From Acetobacter sp. (lineage in GTDB: Bacteria > Pseudomonadota > Alphaproteobacteria > RF32 > CAG-239): a stretch of 44,551 bases of DNA. Positions 18,644 to 27,843 of the stretch are shown here, one piece after another; position 1 is the first letter of the stretch, and every line of letters starts with the position of its first letter. Location: positions 1 to 44,551 of the forward strand of contig JAMPED010000013.1 in the NCBI GenBank assembly GCA_023665325.1. The letters are read 5' to 3'. The translations under genes were made by a program, and so were the position numbers. The notes beneath the pieces are model-generated. The model was not told where the DNA came from. It did not search any database and saw nothing but the letters and a program-made list of their open reading frames with translations.

Positions 18644-18796
18644 TTTTTATTCCTTACACTTTATTTTGTATGATTTTAATGTATTTTTTTTAATTTTCGG
18701 TTAAACCTGTGGTTTATTTGAACTGCTAAAGTTTTATTGGAATATAGCTCTTTACTGATTATTTTTACATCGTCAAAACGCTTGAGGAGATTGCTT

Positions 18797-19483
18797 ATGA
18801 GCAAAAAACTAACATATTTTTCTGCAGCAGCGGTTTGTTCCGCCTGCCTTTTTGCAGCTGGTAATGCAGATGCATATAACGCAGATTTCTCACACAATGC
18901 AGAAACTATACAACACTTTCATCAAGGTAAATTCAGTTCAGAAAAAGGAGAATTTAAAATGTCACAGAATAATGTTAATGACGAAACTCTTTGGGAAAAG
19001 ACCAAAGAAATGGGAGCCAAAGCTTGGGAAGCTACGAAAGAAGGTACAGCTAAGGCTTGGGACAAAACTAAAGAACTTAGTAGCGACGCTTGGGATAAAA
19101 CTAAAGAATTAAGTGGAAATGCTGGTGAGACTGTTGCTGATAAATCTGAAGATGCGTGGGAAGCAACAAAGGATGGTACAGCTAAAGCTTGGGACAAAAC
19201 CAAAGAAGTGAGTGGTGATGCTTGGGAGGCTACGAAAGAAGGTACCGCCAAAGCTGGTGAAGCTATTTCTGATACAACTTCTGATGCGTGGGAAGCAACA
19301 AAGGATGGTACAGCTAAGGCTTGGGACAAAACTAAAGAAGTGAGTGAAGATGCTTGGGAAGCTACGAAAGAGGCTGCTGATGATGCTGGCGATGCCTTAA
19401 GCGGAGATCGATATGATAATCCAATGTATAATCCCCAAAATGGTAATACTGATACCCATTACAAACATCATTCTGACAACTAA
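18797..19483 (+). CDS. LEA-like protein of thirteen 11-residue repeats, probably exported
   Basis: From the ATG at 18797 (GAGGAG at 18784-18789) the protein begins MSKKLTYFSAAAVCSACLF with a signal peptide ending near ADA, then a 50-residue linker. From 18989 to 19417 there are thirteen consecutive 11-residue units without a single gap: LWEKTKEMGAK, AWEATKEGTAK, AWDKTKELSSD and so on. Trp is the second residue in ten of them; units 5, 9 and 13 begin AG, giving a 44-residue higher period. The tail is DNPMYNPQNGN and histidine-rich. This resembles group 3 LEA and apolipoprotein/synuclein 11-mers that form amphipathic helices on membranes or in drying cells. A second in-frame ATG with its own strong ribosome site lies at 18959. 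An in-frame ATG at 18737 has none. Confidence 0.8.
   Translation: MSKKLTYFSAAAVCSACLFAAGNADAYNADFSHNAETIQHFHQGKFSSEKGEFKMSQNNVNDETLWEKTKEMGAKAWEATKEGTAKAWDKTKELSSDAWDKTKELSGNAGETVADKSEDAWEATKDGTAKAWDKTKEVSGDAWEATKEGTAKAGEAISDTTSDAWEATKDGTAKAWDKTKEVSEDAWEATKEAADDAGDALSGDRYDNPMYNPQNGNTDTHYKHHSDN
18945..18961 (+). promoter_or_regulatory. Internal ribosome binding site and alternative start
   Basis: AAGGAG at 18945-18950 lies eight bases before an in-frame ATG at 18959. Starting there gives a 174-residue repeat protein (MSQNNVNDET) without signal peptide, so one gene could give an exported and a cytoplasmic form. Confidence 0.45.
19151..19372 (+). repeat. 132-bp imperfect tandem repeat inside the LEA-like gene
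   Basis: The stretch beginning GATGCGTGGGAAGCAACAAA at 19151 recurs at 19283, a period of 132 bases (44 codons, four 11-mers), with only a few silent or conservative changes over the first 65 or so bases. It indicates recent expansion by duplication. Confidence 0.8.
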
Positions 19484-23849: not shown

Positions 23850-24833
23850 TTAATAATTTTTAGATTTTTGCGTTACCAACATCATTTGCGCCAATTCTTC
23901 ACGGTTATGCTGTTGAACTTTATCTGCAATAAACGAGTGAATATCTATAATAGCACATATTGTAGTCCTTTCCAAATTCATCTCTTCCTTATTTTTTGTT
24001 GGTGAAAATTCTAAAAGTAGAGGAGTACCATTTTCATTAAAACCTGATATCATTCTGGCGTGTCTATATTCTCTTTTTTCCTTACTCTGATTTTGAAAAA
24101 TTATTATATTTCCAAGTTTTAAATCTTCGGGTTTAAGTTCATTTATTGGCGTTTCTTTTACATATTGCGCCCCTAGACTATGTATTAAATCTTTGGGGTG
24201 AGCTAAATTTTCTTTATTTAGATTGTCTGGAAACAATGAAACACCAAATTCCTTTTCTGCGTGCAGAAGTGATACGGTAATACCTTTGGTGCAATTTCCT
24301 TTATCTTTTGTGCTATCAACTTCATTGAAAAAACTATCGTTTATGGTTCTGCGATGAAATATTTCCGTTGACTTCTCAATAAGTTTATCTAGTACGACTT
24401 TGTCTTCTAACTTCTTACTGGCGATTTCATTCCCGAATGTTACATATAAACCGTCTATTATTTCTTTTAGAGCTTTATCATCACCATTTTCTCGAGCGGC
24501 TATCAAATCTTCTTTTACAGCCAATGTTTCTGGATGATTGGCAAAGTTATCAATAATGACATTAACCCTGATATTCTTTTGAAACATCTCAAAATCATTA
24601 TTATCAGTCTTTGGCGTTGTCTTTTGTTCTTTCTTGGGTTCTTCCTTGGTATGCGGCATATGGTATTCATTGTCTTCTTTATACCTTTTTTCAAGAATTG
24701 GTAAGAGTTCTTCTGCAGTTCGAGCACTAAATAATTGGCGACATTCTTCTTGAAAAGTTATTAAAGTATCATTGCGCTTGATGACATCTTGCACATACCA
24801 ATCATACATTTCTTCAGCGTTAACTTGGCTCAT
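23850..24833 (-). CDS. Hypothetical protein with possible Cys-His peptidase/amidase region
   Basis: A 327-residue protein with no signal peptide; residues 60-80 are lysine/proline-rich. In the C-terminal half, KGNCTKGITVSLLHAEKEFG near residue 180 and REYRHARMISGFNENGTPLLLEF near 260 have the order and spacing of a nucleophilic Cys followed by a His on a strand, as in papain-like or NlpC-type folds. This is a weak structural guess. The frame continues past its stop through two further open stretches down to 23316, so it may be a truncated or broken gene. It diverges from the NAD operon. Confidence 0.5.
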   Translation of the reverse strand: MSQVNAEEMYDWYVQDVIKRNDTLITFQEECRQLFSARTAEELLPILEKRYKEDNEYHMPHTKEEPKKEQKTTPKTDNNDFEMFQKNIRVNVIIDNFANHPETLAVKEDLIAARENGDDKALKEIIDGLYVTFGNEIASKKLEDKVVLDKLIEKSTEIFHRRTINDSFFNEVDSTKDKGNCTKGITVSLLHAEKEFGVSLFPDNLNKENLAHPKDLIHSLGAQYVKETPINELKPEDLKLGNIIIFQNQSKEKREYRHARMISGFNENGTPLLLEFSPTKNKEEMNLERTTICAIIDIHSFIADKVQQHNREELAQMMLVTQKSKNY

Positions 24834-24893
24834 TTATTTTCTCCTTTAAATAAATTGTAACACAAGTTTACTTGATTGACAATTCTTTTATGC

Positions 24894-24921
24894 TTGACAT
24901 TTGGGGGAGAGCGGATATTAT
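24894..24921 (+). promoter_or_regulatory. Promoter of the NAD salvage operon
   Basis: TTGACA (24894-24899), a 16-base spacer, then TATTAT (24916-24921). Transcription would start near 24927, which is exactly where the first stem of the structured leader begins. A second TTGACA at 24876 has no matching -10. Confidence 0.65.
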
Positions 24922-24926
24922 AAAAT

Positions 24927-24986
24927 TGTTCTTGATGCTTGCAGGGCTTATAAGCATAGAACAGATACTAACCAGAGCCGAGGTTA
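24927..24986 (+). promoter_or_regulatory. Structured leader RNA, copy 1: candidate riboswitch aptamer
   Basis: Hairpin 1: TGTTCT (24927-24932) with AGAACA (24958-24963) and TGCTT (24936-24940) with AAGCA (24952-24956), an internal loop between them and an 11-nt apical loop GCAGGGCTTAT (24941-24951). Hairpin 2: TAACC (24969-24973) with GGTTA (24982-24986), loop AGAGCCGA. GGCT of loop 1 can pair with AGCC of loop 2, giving a kissing-loop pseudoknot. A second copy with the identical 11-nt loop but different stem bases lies at 25658-25724. The genes controlled all make NAD, so NAD or a precursor is the likely ligand (inference). Confidence 0.6.
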
Positions 24987-25028
24987 ATGAGATTTTAGAC
25001 TGTATTGGTTTATTTAAATTTCGTTTAG

Positions 25029-25053
25029 CGGCTCCTAAGATAGGAGTTTTTTT
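25029..25053 (+). promoter_or_regulatory. Terminator-like hairpin that buries the nadM ribosome site
   Basis: CTCCTA (25032-25037) pairs with TAGGAG (25041-25046) around AGA, followed by seven T. The 3' arm is also the Shine-Dalgarno of the ATG at 25055. CGGCTC (25029-25034), overlapping the 5' arm, is exactly complementary to GAGCCG (24975-24980) of the aptamer's second loop, so the two pairings exclude each other. Confidence 0.6.
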
Positions 25054-25054
25054 A

Positions 25055-25597
25055 ATGTCTAATTACAAATATAAACACGGGCTTTCCATTATGCGGGCGC
25101 AACCGTTTCATATCGGTCACCAGAAGCTCGTTAATAAGATGCTTTCCGAATGTGAGCGAGTAACGATTGTACTTGGTTCTATCCAAGAACAAGGGACAGC
25201 ACGCAATCCACTCAACTACACTACCCGCAAAAAAATGATTCAAAACATCTACCGTTCAAAACCAGAATATGAACGCTTAAAGATTATCGGCTTGTTTGAT
25301 ATTAACAATCCGGCTGAATGGGGTGAGTATGTTCTTGACTTCATCAAAGAGAGCTTTCCGGATATGCCGACGCCTGATGTTTATTATGCCGGGTCTTCTT
25401 ATGATGCGCATTGGTTTAGAGAATGTTTTAACAATATTGAGCTAGAAGACAGAACAGACCCGAATTTTCCGTTTGTTACTGGGACGATGGTTCGAGATAT
25501 GATAAAATTCGGTGATAATCGTTGGAAGAATTTTATTGCGCCGGAAAACCATCACATCGTTGAGGAATATTTTAACAAGAAGAAAGGTATAATCTAG
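25055..25597 (+). CDS. nadM: Nicotinamide/nicotinate-nucleotide adenylyltransferase (NadM type)
   Basis: A 180-residue nucleotidyl transferase of the HxGH class. MRAQPFHIGHQKLVNKML carries the ATP-binding HIGH near residue 20; VLGSIQEQGTARNPLNYTTRKKM follows, and FPFVTGTMVRDMI stands where ISxTxxR occurs in other members. Length and motifs fit the compact NadM type rather than NadD. It joins NMN or NaMN to AMP, giving NAD or NaAD. TAGGAG at 25041-25046 fixes the ATG at 25055; an in-frame start at 24872 would run through the structured leader. First gene of the NAD operon; no nadD is present in this window. Confidence 0.85.
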   Translation: MSNYKYKHGLSIMRAQPFHIGHQKLVNKMLSECERVTIVLGSIQEQGTARNPLNYTTRKKMIQNIYRSKPEYERLKIIGLFDINNPAEWGEYVLDFIKESFPDMPTPDVYYAGSSYDAHWFRECFNNIELEDRTDPNFPFVTGTMVRDMIKFGDNRWKNFIAPENHHIVEEYFNKKKGII

Positions 25598-25657
25598 GTA
25601 GCTGCGCCACCTGCAACAACATAATGCAGTAATTTTAAGTTTTATTTTCACTTTTTA

Positions 25658-25724
25658 CCGTCTGCGTCTTCTGCAGGGCTTATGGAAGACAGACGGCGAC
25701 ATAACCCTAATAAGCCTGAAAGGG
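25658..25724 (+). promoter_or_regulatory. Structured RNA, copy 2: candidate riboswitch over the pncA ribosome site
   Basis: Hairpin 1: CCGTCT (25658-25663) with AGACGG (25691-25696), and GTCTTC (25666-25671) with GAAGAC (25685-25690), a two-base bulge GC on the 5' side, a closing T-G pair and apical loop GCAGGGCTTAT (25673-25683), identical to copy 1. Hairpin 2: CCCT (25705-25708) with AGGG (25721-25724). Its loop contains ATAAGCC (25710-25716), a perfect 7-base complement of GGCTTAT in loop 1. AAAGGG (25719-25724), the Shine-Dalgarno of pncA (ATG 25733), lies within the 3' arm, so forming the element should block translation. Confidence 0.65.
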
Positions 25725-25732
25725 ATTTTAAG

Positions 25733-26356
25733 ATGAATAACCGTATTTTAATGCGGATTGATTTTCAAAATGATTTTGTACATCCGCACGGTGCACTTTC
25801 CATTGAAGCACCGGAATTGATTAAAAAACAGCAGAAATTTGCTGACAACCTATTCAAAGGCAGTTTTGACAAGATTATAGATACTTACGATACACATTTT
25901 CAAGAAACATACGGCCAAACTGCCGAGGCTATGGATTATCCACTACACTGTGTTTTTGGCAGTTGGGGCTGGCAACAAGCGACGCCGTTTAAACCAGAAC
26001 TTAATGTGACAAAGATGTATAAATCTACAACCAATATTTGGAATGAGGTACGGCAATATCGTGATTTAGCAGCAGATTGGAGCGGAAAAGAAGTTTACCT
26101 TTGCGGTGTATTGAGTGATGTTTGTGTTCAGCAGGCGATGAATGGATTTTTGAAAAAAGGCGCTAAGGTGGTGATTTTGGAGGATTTATGCCAAGGATTA
26201 AATCGACAAATTAGCGATATTTTACAAGATGATATCTACAGTTCATTTATTGAAAATGGTAAACTTAGAAGTATTAACAGCGCACAGTTTTTTCGCAAAA
26301 ATCTTTTAGACAAGAAAATTGAGCATAATTTAGTTAACAGAACTATGGGAGAATAG
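25733..26356 (+). CDS. pncA: Nicotinamidase
   Basis: About 207 residues of the isochorismatase/nicotinamidase fold. MRIDFQNDFVHPHGAL has the catalytic aspartate, IIDTYDTHF and YPLHCVFGSWGW the metal-side region, KSTTNIW follows, and LCGVLSDVCVQQAMNGFLKKG carries the nucleophilic cysteine. It converts nicotinamide to nicotinate, the first step of the salvage route here. I start it at 25733 because AAAGGG at 25719 fits and because the longer frame (25682) would translate the structured RNA element. It is followed after two bases by the phosphoribosyltransferase gene. Confidence 0.9.
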   Translation: MNNRILMRIDFQNDFVHPHGALSIEAPELIKKQQKFADNLFKGSFDKIIDTYDTHFQETYGQTAEAMDYPLHCVFGSWGWQQATPFKPELNVTKMYKSTTNIWNEVRQYRDLAADWSGKEVYLCGVLSDVCVQQAMNGFLKKGAKVVILEDLCQGLNRQISDILQDDIYSSFIENGKLRSINSAQFFRKNLLDKKIEHNLVNRTMGE

Positions 26357-26358
26357 AG

Positions 26359-27843
26359 ATGAGAGAGAACAATACAAGACCGAATATTTTAGCTAACGGC
26401 ACACCGCTTTTTTGTGATTTGTATCATTTAACAATGGCGCAGGCGTGGTTTATGGATGGTAAGGCAGAAGAAACCAAGACCTCTGAGGCTTTTTTCCGCA
26501 AATGTCCGTTTGGTGGGAGTTATCTTATTGCCACTGGTCAGGCAGAATTTGCCCAATGGCTCAAAAATTGGCGTTTTGAAAAAGAAGATATTGATTATCT
26601 TAGAACAGTGATGAATCCAAACGGTAAACCCAAATTTAATGATGATTTTCTTCAATTTTTAGAGGGGCAGAAACCACATATAAATATTCGTACGGTACGT
26701 GAGGGAGAAATTGTCTTTCCGAATGAACCAGTATATTCGGTATCTGGACCTTGCTGGCAGGTTGATTTGGTGGAAGCGGCTTTATTAAATATCTTTAACT
26801 CCCAAAGCCTTATTGCAACAAAAGCATCTCGTATGGCGTATGCGGCAAGTTTAGACGGAAAGAAACGTCCATTGCTAGAATTTGGCTTACGTCGAGCGCA
26901 AGAGTTGGGGTGTTTCTCACAAACACGCGCTGCTTTCATCGGTGGATCTGCTGGCACATCTAATACAGCGGCGGCTAAGCATTATAAAATTCCTGCAAGC
27001 GGTACTATGGCTCATTCGTTTATTATGAGTTATGAAAATGAACTTGATGCTTTCAAGGCTTATATGAGAGCCTCAGAGGGCAACACAATTTTATTAGTTG
27101 ATACGTACGATACCAGAGAGGGGGTAAAAAATGCTATTCGTGCATCTAGGGAAACAGGTGTTGATCTGATGGGGATACGTATTGATTCTGGTGATTTAGC
27201 CTATTGGGGAAAAGAGGCTAGACGAATTTTAGATGAAGCGGATATGCCGTATGTTAAGTTGGTAGCGTCTAACGACCTTGACGAACACTTGATTGAAAAT
27301 CTGGTTATGGTTCAAAAAGCACCTTATGACATCTTCGCTGCTGGAACAAAGCTAGTAACAGCATACGACACCCCTGCTCTGGGTGGTGTTTTTAAAACTA
27401 AGTCCTATATGGGCGAACCTAAAATCAAAATTGCCGAAGGGAAAACGACGATTCCAGGGGCTACAGATATTTTACGTATTGTCCGTGAAGGCAAATTTGA
27501 AGGAGATATTATTGTTCGGGCGGATGTGCAAGATATTCTTGACGGGACGCAGCTGGCGCGTGATGTTACTTCTTATACGCTTGGTAGCCCAAACGGGGCA
27601 AAAGTTATATTCCCCAAAGGAACAACGGCAACCCCTCTCTTGCAAACAATTATGCAAAATGGTAAGTTTACTTATCAACCTGAGACAAATCTTCAATTTT
27701 TGCAATACGAAGCAGAGCGTAATCTTTTAATGCTTGATAACTCATATAAAAGACTTTCTAACCCACATATTTATGGTGTAGGTTTGGAAAGCAGCTTATA
27801 TGGAATACAACAAAATTTAATTAAAGCGCACCAAGGGAGATAA
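26359..27843 (+). CDS. pncB: Nicotinate phosphoribosyltransferase
   Basis: A 494-residue NAPRTase. DLYHLTMAQAWF at the N-terminus, EAFFRKCPFGGSYLI, ALLNIFNSQSLIATKASRM, LEFGLRRAQ, GGSAGTSNTAAAKHYKIPASGTMAHSFI (the phosphate-binding region and the catalytic-site histidine), LLVDTYDTREG, MGIRIDSGDL and ASNDLDEHLIENL are the family blocks in order. It forms nicotinate mononucleotide from nicotinate and PRPP with ATP. GGGAGAATAGAG just before the ATG, inside the pncA end, provides the ribosome site. Four bases separate it from nadE. Full length, no lesions seen. Confidence 0.95.
   Translation: MRENNTRPNILANGTPLFCDLYHLTMAQAWFMDGKAEETKTSEAFFRKCPFGGSYLIATGQAEFAQWLKNWRFEKEDIDYLRTVMNPNGKPKFNDDFLQFLEGQKPHINIRTVREGEIVFPNEPVYSVSGPCWQVDLVEAALLNIFNSQSLIATKASRMAYAASLDGKKRPLLEFGLRRAQELGCFSQTRAAFIGGSAGTSNTAAAKHYKIPASGTMAHSFIMSYENELDAFKAYMRASEGNTILLVDTYDTREGVKNAIRASRETGVDLMGIRIDSGDLAYWGKEARRILDEADMPYVKLVASNDLDEHLIENLVMVQKAPYDIFAAGTKLVTAYDTPALGGVFKTKSYMGEPKIKIAEGKTTIPGATDILRIVREGKFEGDIIVRADVQDILDGTQLARDVTSYTLGSPNGAKVIFPKGTTATPLLQTIMQNGKFTYQPETNLQFLQYEAERNLLMLDNSYKRLSNPHIYGVGLESSLYGIQQNLIKAHQGR

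Follow-up and report, generated by a model that had tools for sequence, protein, structure and literature searches.

Why does one operon for NAD synthesis carry the same structured RNA element twice, and what could such an element sense? We examined this question in a window of 44,551 nucleotides, which is the whole stretch of DNA analysed here and to which all coordinates refer. Our answer, which we hold to be probable, is that the element is an OFF riboswitch for NAD+ or a close compound of the same pathway, distinct from the NAD+-I and NAD+-II classes. The genes concerned are the following:

25055..25597, + strand: nadM-like gene of the nucleotidyltransferase family, passing Pfam CTP_transf_like and falling under the NCBIfam NMN adenylyltransferase cut-offs
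25733..26356, + strand: pncA-like gene for an isochorismatase-family hydrolase, passing the Pfam cut-off and far under the NCBIfam nicotinamidase cut-off
26359..27843, + strand: pncB, nicotinate phosphoribosyltransferase, passing NCBIfam TIGR01513
27848..28621, + strand: nadE, NAD+ synthase, passing NCBIfam TIGR00552

The names nadM and pncA rest on broad Pfam family membership and on context, curated cut-offs being reached by pncB and nadE only. Together, nadM, pncA, pncB and nadE form the pathway from nicotinamide via nicotinate, NaMN and NaAD to NAD+. A divergent gene beside the operon (23850-24833, minus strand) matches nothing in Pfam or NCBIfam at E 0.001, and elsewhere in the window a predicted protein at 18737-19483 consists mostly of repeats of the AWEATKEGTAKAWDKTKE kind.

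The element precedes nadM as copy 1 (type A) and pncA as copy 2 (type B), one element per leader and about 730 bases apart. Its parts are as follows:

24926..24989, + strand: copy 1 (type A), match to model R1 with 59 bits, the window copies having belonged to the training set
24928-24932/24958-24962, + strand: copy 1 lower stem, followed by the bulge UG at 24933-24934
24935-24940/24952-24957, + strand: copy 1 upper stem, with the loop at 24941-24951
24969..24986, + strand: copy 1 second hairpin, UAACC 24969-24973 with GGUUA 24982-24986
24975-24979, + strand: copy 1 kissing strand GAGCC, able to pair with GGCUU of the loop at 24945-24949
25658..25721, + strand: copy 2 (type B), match to model R1 with 67.2 bits, again with the window copies in the training set
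25658-25664/25690-25696, + strand: copy 2 lower stem, followed by the bulge CG at 25665-25666
25667-25672/25684-25689, + strand: copy 2 upper stem, with the loop at 25673-25683
25705..25725, + strand: copy 2 second hairpin, CCCU 25705-25708 with AGGG 25721-25724, the latter being the pncA ribosome site
25710-25716, + strand: copy 2 kissing strand AUAAGCC, pairing with GGCUUAU of the loop at 25677-25683

Both copies follow a common plan of a lower stem, a two-base 5′ bulge NG, an upper stem of six pairs, an 11-nt loop and a downstream hairpin which pairs with this loop. A preliminary description of this DNA had reported an identical loop in the two copies, and GCAGGGCTTAT is indeed found at 24941-24951 and 25673-25683. 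The differing but complementary stems, the second hairpins and the AGCC able to pair with the first loop are all present as described. The break between the stem halves, which had been left as either an internal loop or a 5′ bulge, turned out in each copy to be a 5′ bulge of two bases, NG, which places the copies in exact register. The seven-base loop pairing proposed for copy 2 was recovered, and in copy 1 the pairing is limited to five pairs, GGCUU/GAGCC, one of them G-U. The degenerate pattern GMAGGGCYTAT matches the window twice, both times in these loops, with 0.07 matches expected and none of 100 shuffles reaching two.

The preliminary description had left a match to a known RNA class to be checked, and no such class was found at either copy. 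The sole match of the window to Rfam 15 (cmscan, all 4227 families) was a tRNA. In the element region (24850-25800), a scan with E up to 10 returned no NAD riboswitch and three weak unrelated matches far under their cut-offs, the best with 20.9 bits versus a cut-off of 55. Divergent copies from five other sources, scanned at E up to 1, matched no known family; a Phe_leader match at L034:98-214 (29.6 bits versus a cut-off of 55) lies away from either element. NAD+-I and NAD+-II, which we assume to be among the 4227 models, gave no Rfam match. Our literature search found no NAD riboswitch of this kind, the motifs of 10.1093/nar/gkx699 being covered only via Rfam, and the available portions of two surveys (PMC8632094, PMC11109978) mention neither nadM nor pncA.

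A search for nadM in genome contigs gave 57 loci, whose titles name Alphaproteobacteria (including Azospirillum CAG:239 and Rhodospirillales) or an unplaced proteobacterium, and several of which come from the rumen or gut of deer, sheep, buffalo and yak. Within the order, model R1 gave 94 matches in 54 of 153 genomes, with two copies in 40 genomes and one in 14 and a weakest score of 46.1 bits. All 94 flank nadM: 54 sit 47-195 bases upstream of it and 40 sit 10-32 bases past its matched end, where pncA comes next in the loci read. Nowhere else in the 54 carrier genomes did R1 match, and no match precedes a transporter or another pathway. Among the fetched loci, which were mostly picked via nadM and are biased to it, with the four window proteins as the only neighbours tried, 115 matches reduced to 99 non-duplicates, of which 56 precede nadM and 43 precede pncA. 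This link to the genes bears on what may be sensed. The ligand of the same RNA could instead be nicotinamide, nicotinate or NADP, perhaps with binding that turns expression on, or a metabolite or ion unrelated to the pathway, and as the genes span the route from nicotinamide to NAD+, an end product and a precursor would suit them equally. However, the confinement of all matches to nadM argues against such ligands, as does a predicted docked state that covers the ribosome site in both platforms and fits feedback by the end product, and we consider them quite unlikely.

Relatives of nadM were found in 80 of the 153 genomes, including all 54 carriers. The best identity to the nadM of the window is at least 68% in carriers and at most 64% in the 26 nadM genomes without the element. 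Twenty of these 26 were examined by a full-model search, which gave nothing above 9 bits and no such leader upstream; the element therefore characterises a clade and does not accompany nadM everywhere. The expectation that homologous operons keep both elements and their pairing held within the clade and failed in the 20 more distant relatives. Six genomes carry a second, diverged nadM relative (G001, at G001:C10:174024-174530, L145; G010, G012, G013, G041 and G095), 47-51% identical to that of the window, and no element match was found beside it.

Beyond the order, R1 was run on 385 genomes of the class and 398 of the phylum, and the only new carrier was G184, the sole genome of its order in the sample. 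Its two copies, one before nadM and one before pncA, scored 36.8 and 26.6 bits and provide an independent test, since G184 was not in the R1 training set. Its locus L117 shows the operon start with both elements in a genome of 900 kb, with a nadM 63% identical to that of the window. Two further matches, L122 and L123, score 24.4 bits (E 0.03-0.04 per genome), which over so many genomes we attribute to chance. A second model, R2, added no carrier in a second draw of 347 genomes of the class, in which the genomes listed had already been sampled and 324 were unlisted. Searches of more than 40 genomes used stricter filters, by which weak copies can be missed. No nadM relative was found in viral contigs and nothing matching 24900-25760 in plasmids, and neither search lends support to viral or plasmid spread. 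Moreover, the nadA family was found in none of the 153 genomes of the order, which do not include the window's own genome, compared with 12 of 14 controls. Judging from this absence alone, these bacteria probably lack the usual de novo NAD route, so that salvage would probably be essential.

Evidence for the structure comes from a joint alignment of 88 sequences (86 distinct; 50 of type A, 38 of type B), in which the plan is kept in exact register, with the loop GMAGGGCUUAU followed by a hairpin with (AUA)AGCC in its loop. Two-sided compensatory changes occur in all 13 hairpin pairs and amount to 388 cells versus a shuffle average of 119, tallies which count sequences and not independent events. 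The covariation score was reached by none of 500 shuffles, the bare number of pairs with two-sided changes by 20 of them. Furthermore, 94.2% of cells pair, compared with 44-49% after one strand has been shifted by 1-3 columns, a control that preserves relatedness yet favours a structure derived from the same sequences. The covarying stems around a constant loop noticed in the two window copies thus extend, beyond chance, to the aligned copies. The kissing helix is likewise kept. In type B, GGCUUAU/AUAAGCC is retained in 98.9% of cells. L019, L034 and the distant L117 have C-G in place of one U-A pair, both strands having changed, and L026 shows this exchange next to a mismatch. The type A helix GGCUU/GAGCC is retained in 98.8% of cells and nearly invariant, with covariation only in L117 (GGCUA with UAGCC) and a weakened helix in L039 and L051. 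The second hairpin of type A covaries only weakly, the mean stem in 46 leaders being 5.17 versus 4.82 upon strand swapping, with 5.15 as the top of 500 shuffles. The bulged hairpin and the kissing helix are thereby shown at the level of sequence.

Constancy is not confined to paired positions. The second base of the bulge is G in 90 of 91 distinct copies, and the AU of the loop is constant in all 50 type A copies despite having no partner there. These unpaired bases are candidates for a binding core, and a conserved structured domain with constant unpaired bases is what is expected of a riboswitch. Small hairpins with a constant loop and a bulge are also typical of protein-binding sites. A repressor, an enzyme of the pathway or some other RNA-binding protein could read the loop and the bulge and set the same switch, and the evidence for the nadM platform given below would suit any binder. 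Yet the loop covaries with a partner in the same RNA, so that intramolecular pairing accounts for much of its constancy, and the fold has the compactness of an aptamer; we therefore regard a protein-bound leader as unlikely. The same observations bear on two options that would work without a ligand, a thermosensor and a target site for a small RNA acting in trans. The short, marginal ribosome-site hairpins would suit such an element, but neither would need a bulge G and unpaired loop bases conserved beyond pairing, or a loop that covaries with a partner in cis, and we consider both highly improbable.

For a riboswitch, the binding domain must be connected to gene expression, and in the nadM leader three further features are relevant:

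24894..24921, + strand: promoter-like site, TTGACA 24894-24899, a 16-base spacer and TATTAT 24916-24921, with 11 of 12 consensus letters
25029..25034, + strand: switch strand CGGCUC, alternative partner of GAGCCG 24975-24980
25032..25053, + strand: ribosome-site hairpin, CUCCU 25032-25036 with AGGAG 25042-25046, then U7 at 25047-25053, with nadM at 25055

Of the 52 type A copies whose site scores at least 9, 48 have a −10 box that ends 1-7 bases upstream of the element, and the mean best promoter score is 9.9 for type A versus 8.4 for type B. Given this near-fixed distance, the nadM transcript would begin at the first stem, near 24928 in the window. A stop-free frame started by TTG (24872-25597) crosses copy 1 into nadM, which could lead an automatic gene caller to place the start of nadM upstream of its true position and so obscure the leader. 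A coding origin of the leader was rejected: open frames around nadM in the order are mostly 184-210 aa versus 180 aa for the query, showing that the frame from 24872 is not conserved.

In 52 of 53 distinct type A leaders, a run of 7-9 U stands between a G-rich ribosome site and the start codon; L040, the exception, has six U and a C. GGCUC precedes the ribosome site in 56 of the 57 type A rows listed (exception L039). As both the loop and GGCUC are complementary to GAGCC, this strand has two mutually exclusive predicted partners, and the CUCC of GGCUC is otherwise able to cover the ribosome site AGGAG-U7. The pairing with GGCUC is extended by covariation of a flanking pair: U stands before GGCUC in 6 of 11 leaders with A after GAGCC and in none of 40 with G. 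The p value of 2.6e-5 is optimistic, the sequences being related and 5 of the 11 A-leaders being mismatched. Folding of 52 leaders, which omits the kissing helix that folding cannot model and whose values come without a shuffled control, gave a mean of 0.97 for GAGCC/GGCUC in the prefix before AGGAG (above 0.5 in 51). In full leaders this pairing and the ribosome-site hairpin both reached 0.54, and when the loop and GAGCC were kept from pairing to mimic docking, coverage of the ribosome site was 0.95. In a separate run, the docked ribosome site was less open in 45 of 52 leaders, by more than 0.2 in only 24. Minimum-energy folds of 46 leaders contained the anti-terminator in 33 and the ribosome-site hairpin in 15. 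At equilibrium, the window's own nadM leader is predicted to be OFF whether docked or not (0.99 and 1.00), with the anti-terminator at 1.00 in the prefix, and switching there would have to be kinetic. In the L117 leader of G184, the anti-terminator does not form even in the prefix (0.01). With these two leaders as exceptions, the predicted nadM platform has the mutually exclusive pairings that characterise riboswitches.

The pncA copy appears to be connected in a different way. In 37 of 38 copies, the 3′ strand of the best stem around the type B kissing strand includes the GG of the ribosome site, a count without a control, and this inclusion of the ribosome site is the only evidence for the putative pncA platform. 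The second stem of type B mostly has three pairs, CCY/RGG, and would need the kissing helix to hold.

How could such an RNA regulate its operon? We infer that it binds a ligand through a core made of the loop, the bulged G and the kissing helix to the second hairpin, and that binding turns expression off. Without ligand, GAGCC of the nadM leader would pair with GGCUC once the latter is made, leaving AGGAG free. With ligand, the loop would hold GAGCC, CUCCU would pair with AGGAG, and the resulting U7 hairpin would hide the ribosome site. This hairpin may also end transcription, and its roughly five pairs are short for a terminator. In the pncA copy, the kissing helix would prop the short stem containing the ribosome site and block translation directly. 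NAD+, as the end product, is the simplest candidate ligand, and NaAD, NMN and NaMN are candidates as well. Of the earlier proposal of a ligand-binding RNA tied to NAD genes, the conserved, structured cis-regulatory RNA and its link to these genes were borne out, and the proposal as a whole is partly supported.

Taken further, and with somewhat more in its favour than against it, the element could be a third, structurally unrelated natural class of NAD+ (or NaAD) riboswitch, in which ligand binding fixes the loop of one hairpin to the hairpin next to it. In the same joint reading, one aptamer would serve two platforms per operon, a co-transcriptional switch involving the nadM ribosome site and the U tract and a direct capture of the pncA ribosome site, in bacteria apparently without a de novo NAD route. 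If true, this third and very small class (about 65 bases), with its deep covariation, would represent another RNA route to sensing NAD and would reveal how NAD supply is controlled in gut and rumen bacteria that seemingly live on niacin salvage. The small size of the element should facilitate probing and crystallisation, and with one aptamer driving two platforms, the operon would be a natural experiment on the coupling of aptamer and output.

Known NAD-related RNAs provide both parallels and differences, here as far as the consulted parts of the cited papers describe them. The pntA motif, a weak riboswitch candidate, has likewise been proposed as a sensor of nicotinamide dinucleotides with the Shine-Dalgarno sequence in a stem (P2), but is set apart by its description as a motif found only in Streptomyces before NAD(P) transhydrogenase (PMC11109978). 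NAD+-II (pnuC motif), found before pnuC in Streptococcus and Haemophilus, is a small pseudoknotted RNA thought to be a translational OFF switch, whose pseudoknot overlaps the ribosome site and whose A5 strand takes part in a triplex with P1 (PMC7749635, PMC10085692). Our element is also a small pseudoknotted RNA 5′ of NAD-related genes. In contrast to NAD+-II, these are nadM and pncA, the loop pairs with a second hairpin, and in both types the partner (AUA)AGCC lies upstream of the ribosome site. NAD+-I (nadA motif) consists of two bulged hairpins with the ribosome site in a stem and gene-off control (PMC10702441), features which our element would share beside an NAD gene. However, NAD+-I has two tandem domains in one leader with a ACANCCCC bulge (PMC7297122), whereas here the bulge has two bases and the two copies precede two different genes. 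ACANCCCC was found in none of 91 distinct copies, each searched with 60 bases downstream, and its three matches in the window are all on the minus strand and away from the elements. The preliminary description had recognised neither class, and we file the element with neither because the ACANCCCC bulge, the tandem layout, the ribosome-site pseudoknot and any Rfam match are absent; yet, judged by its predicted pairings, it would work like both.
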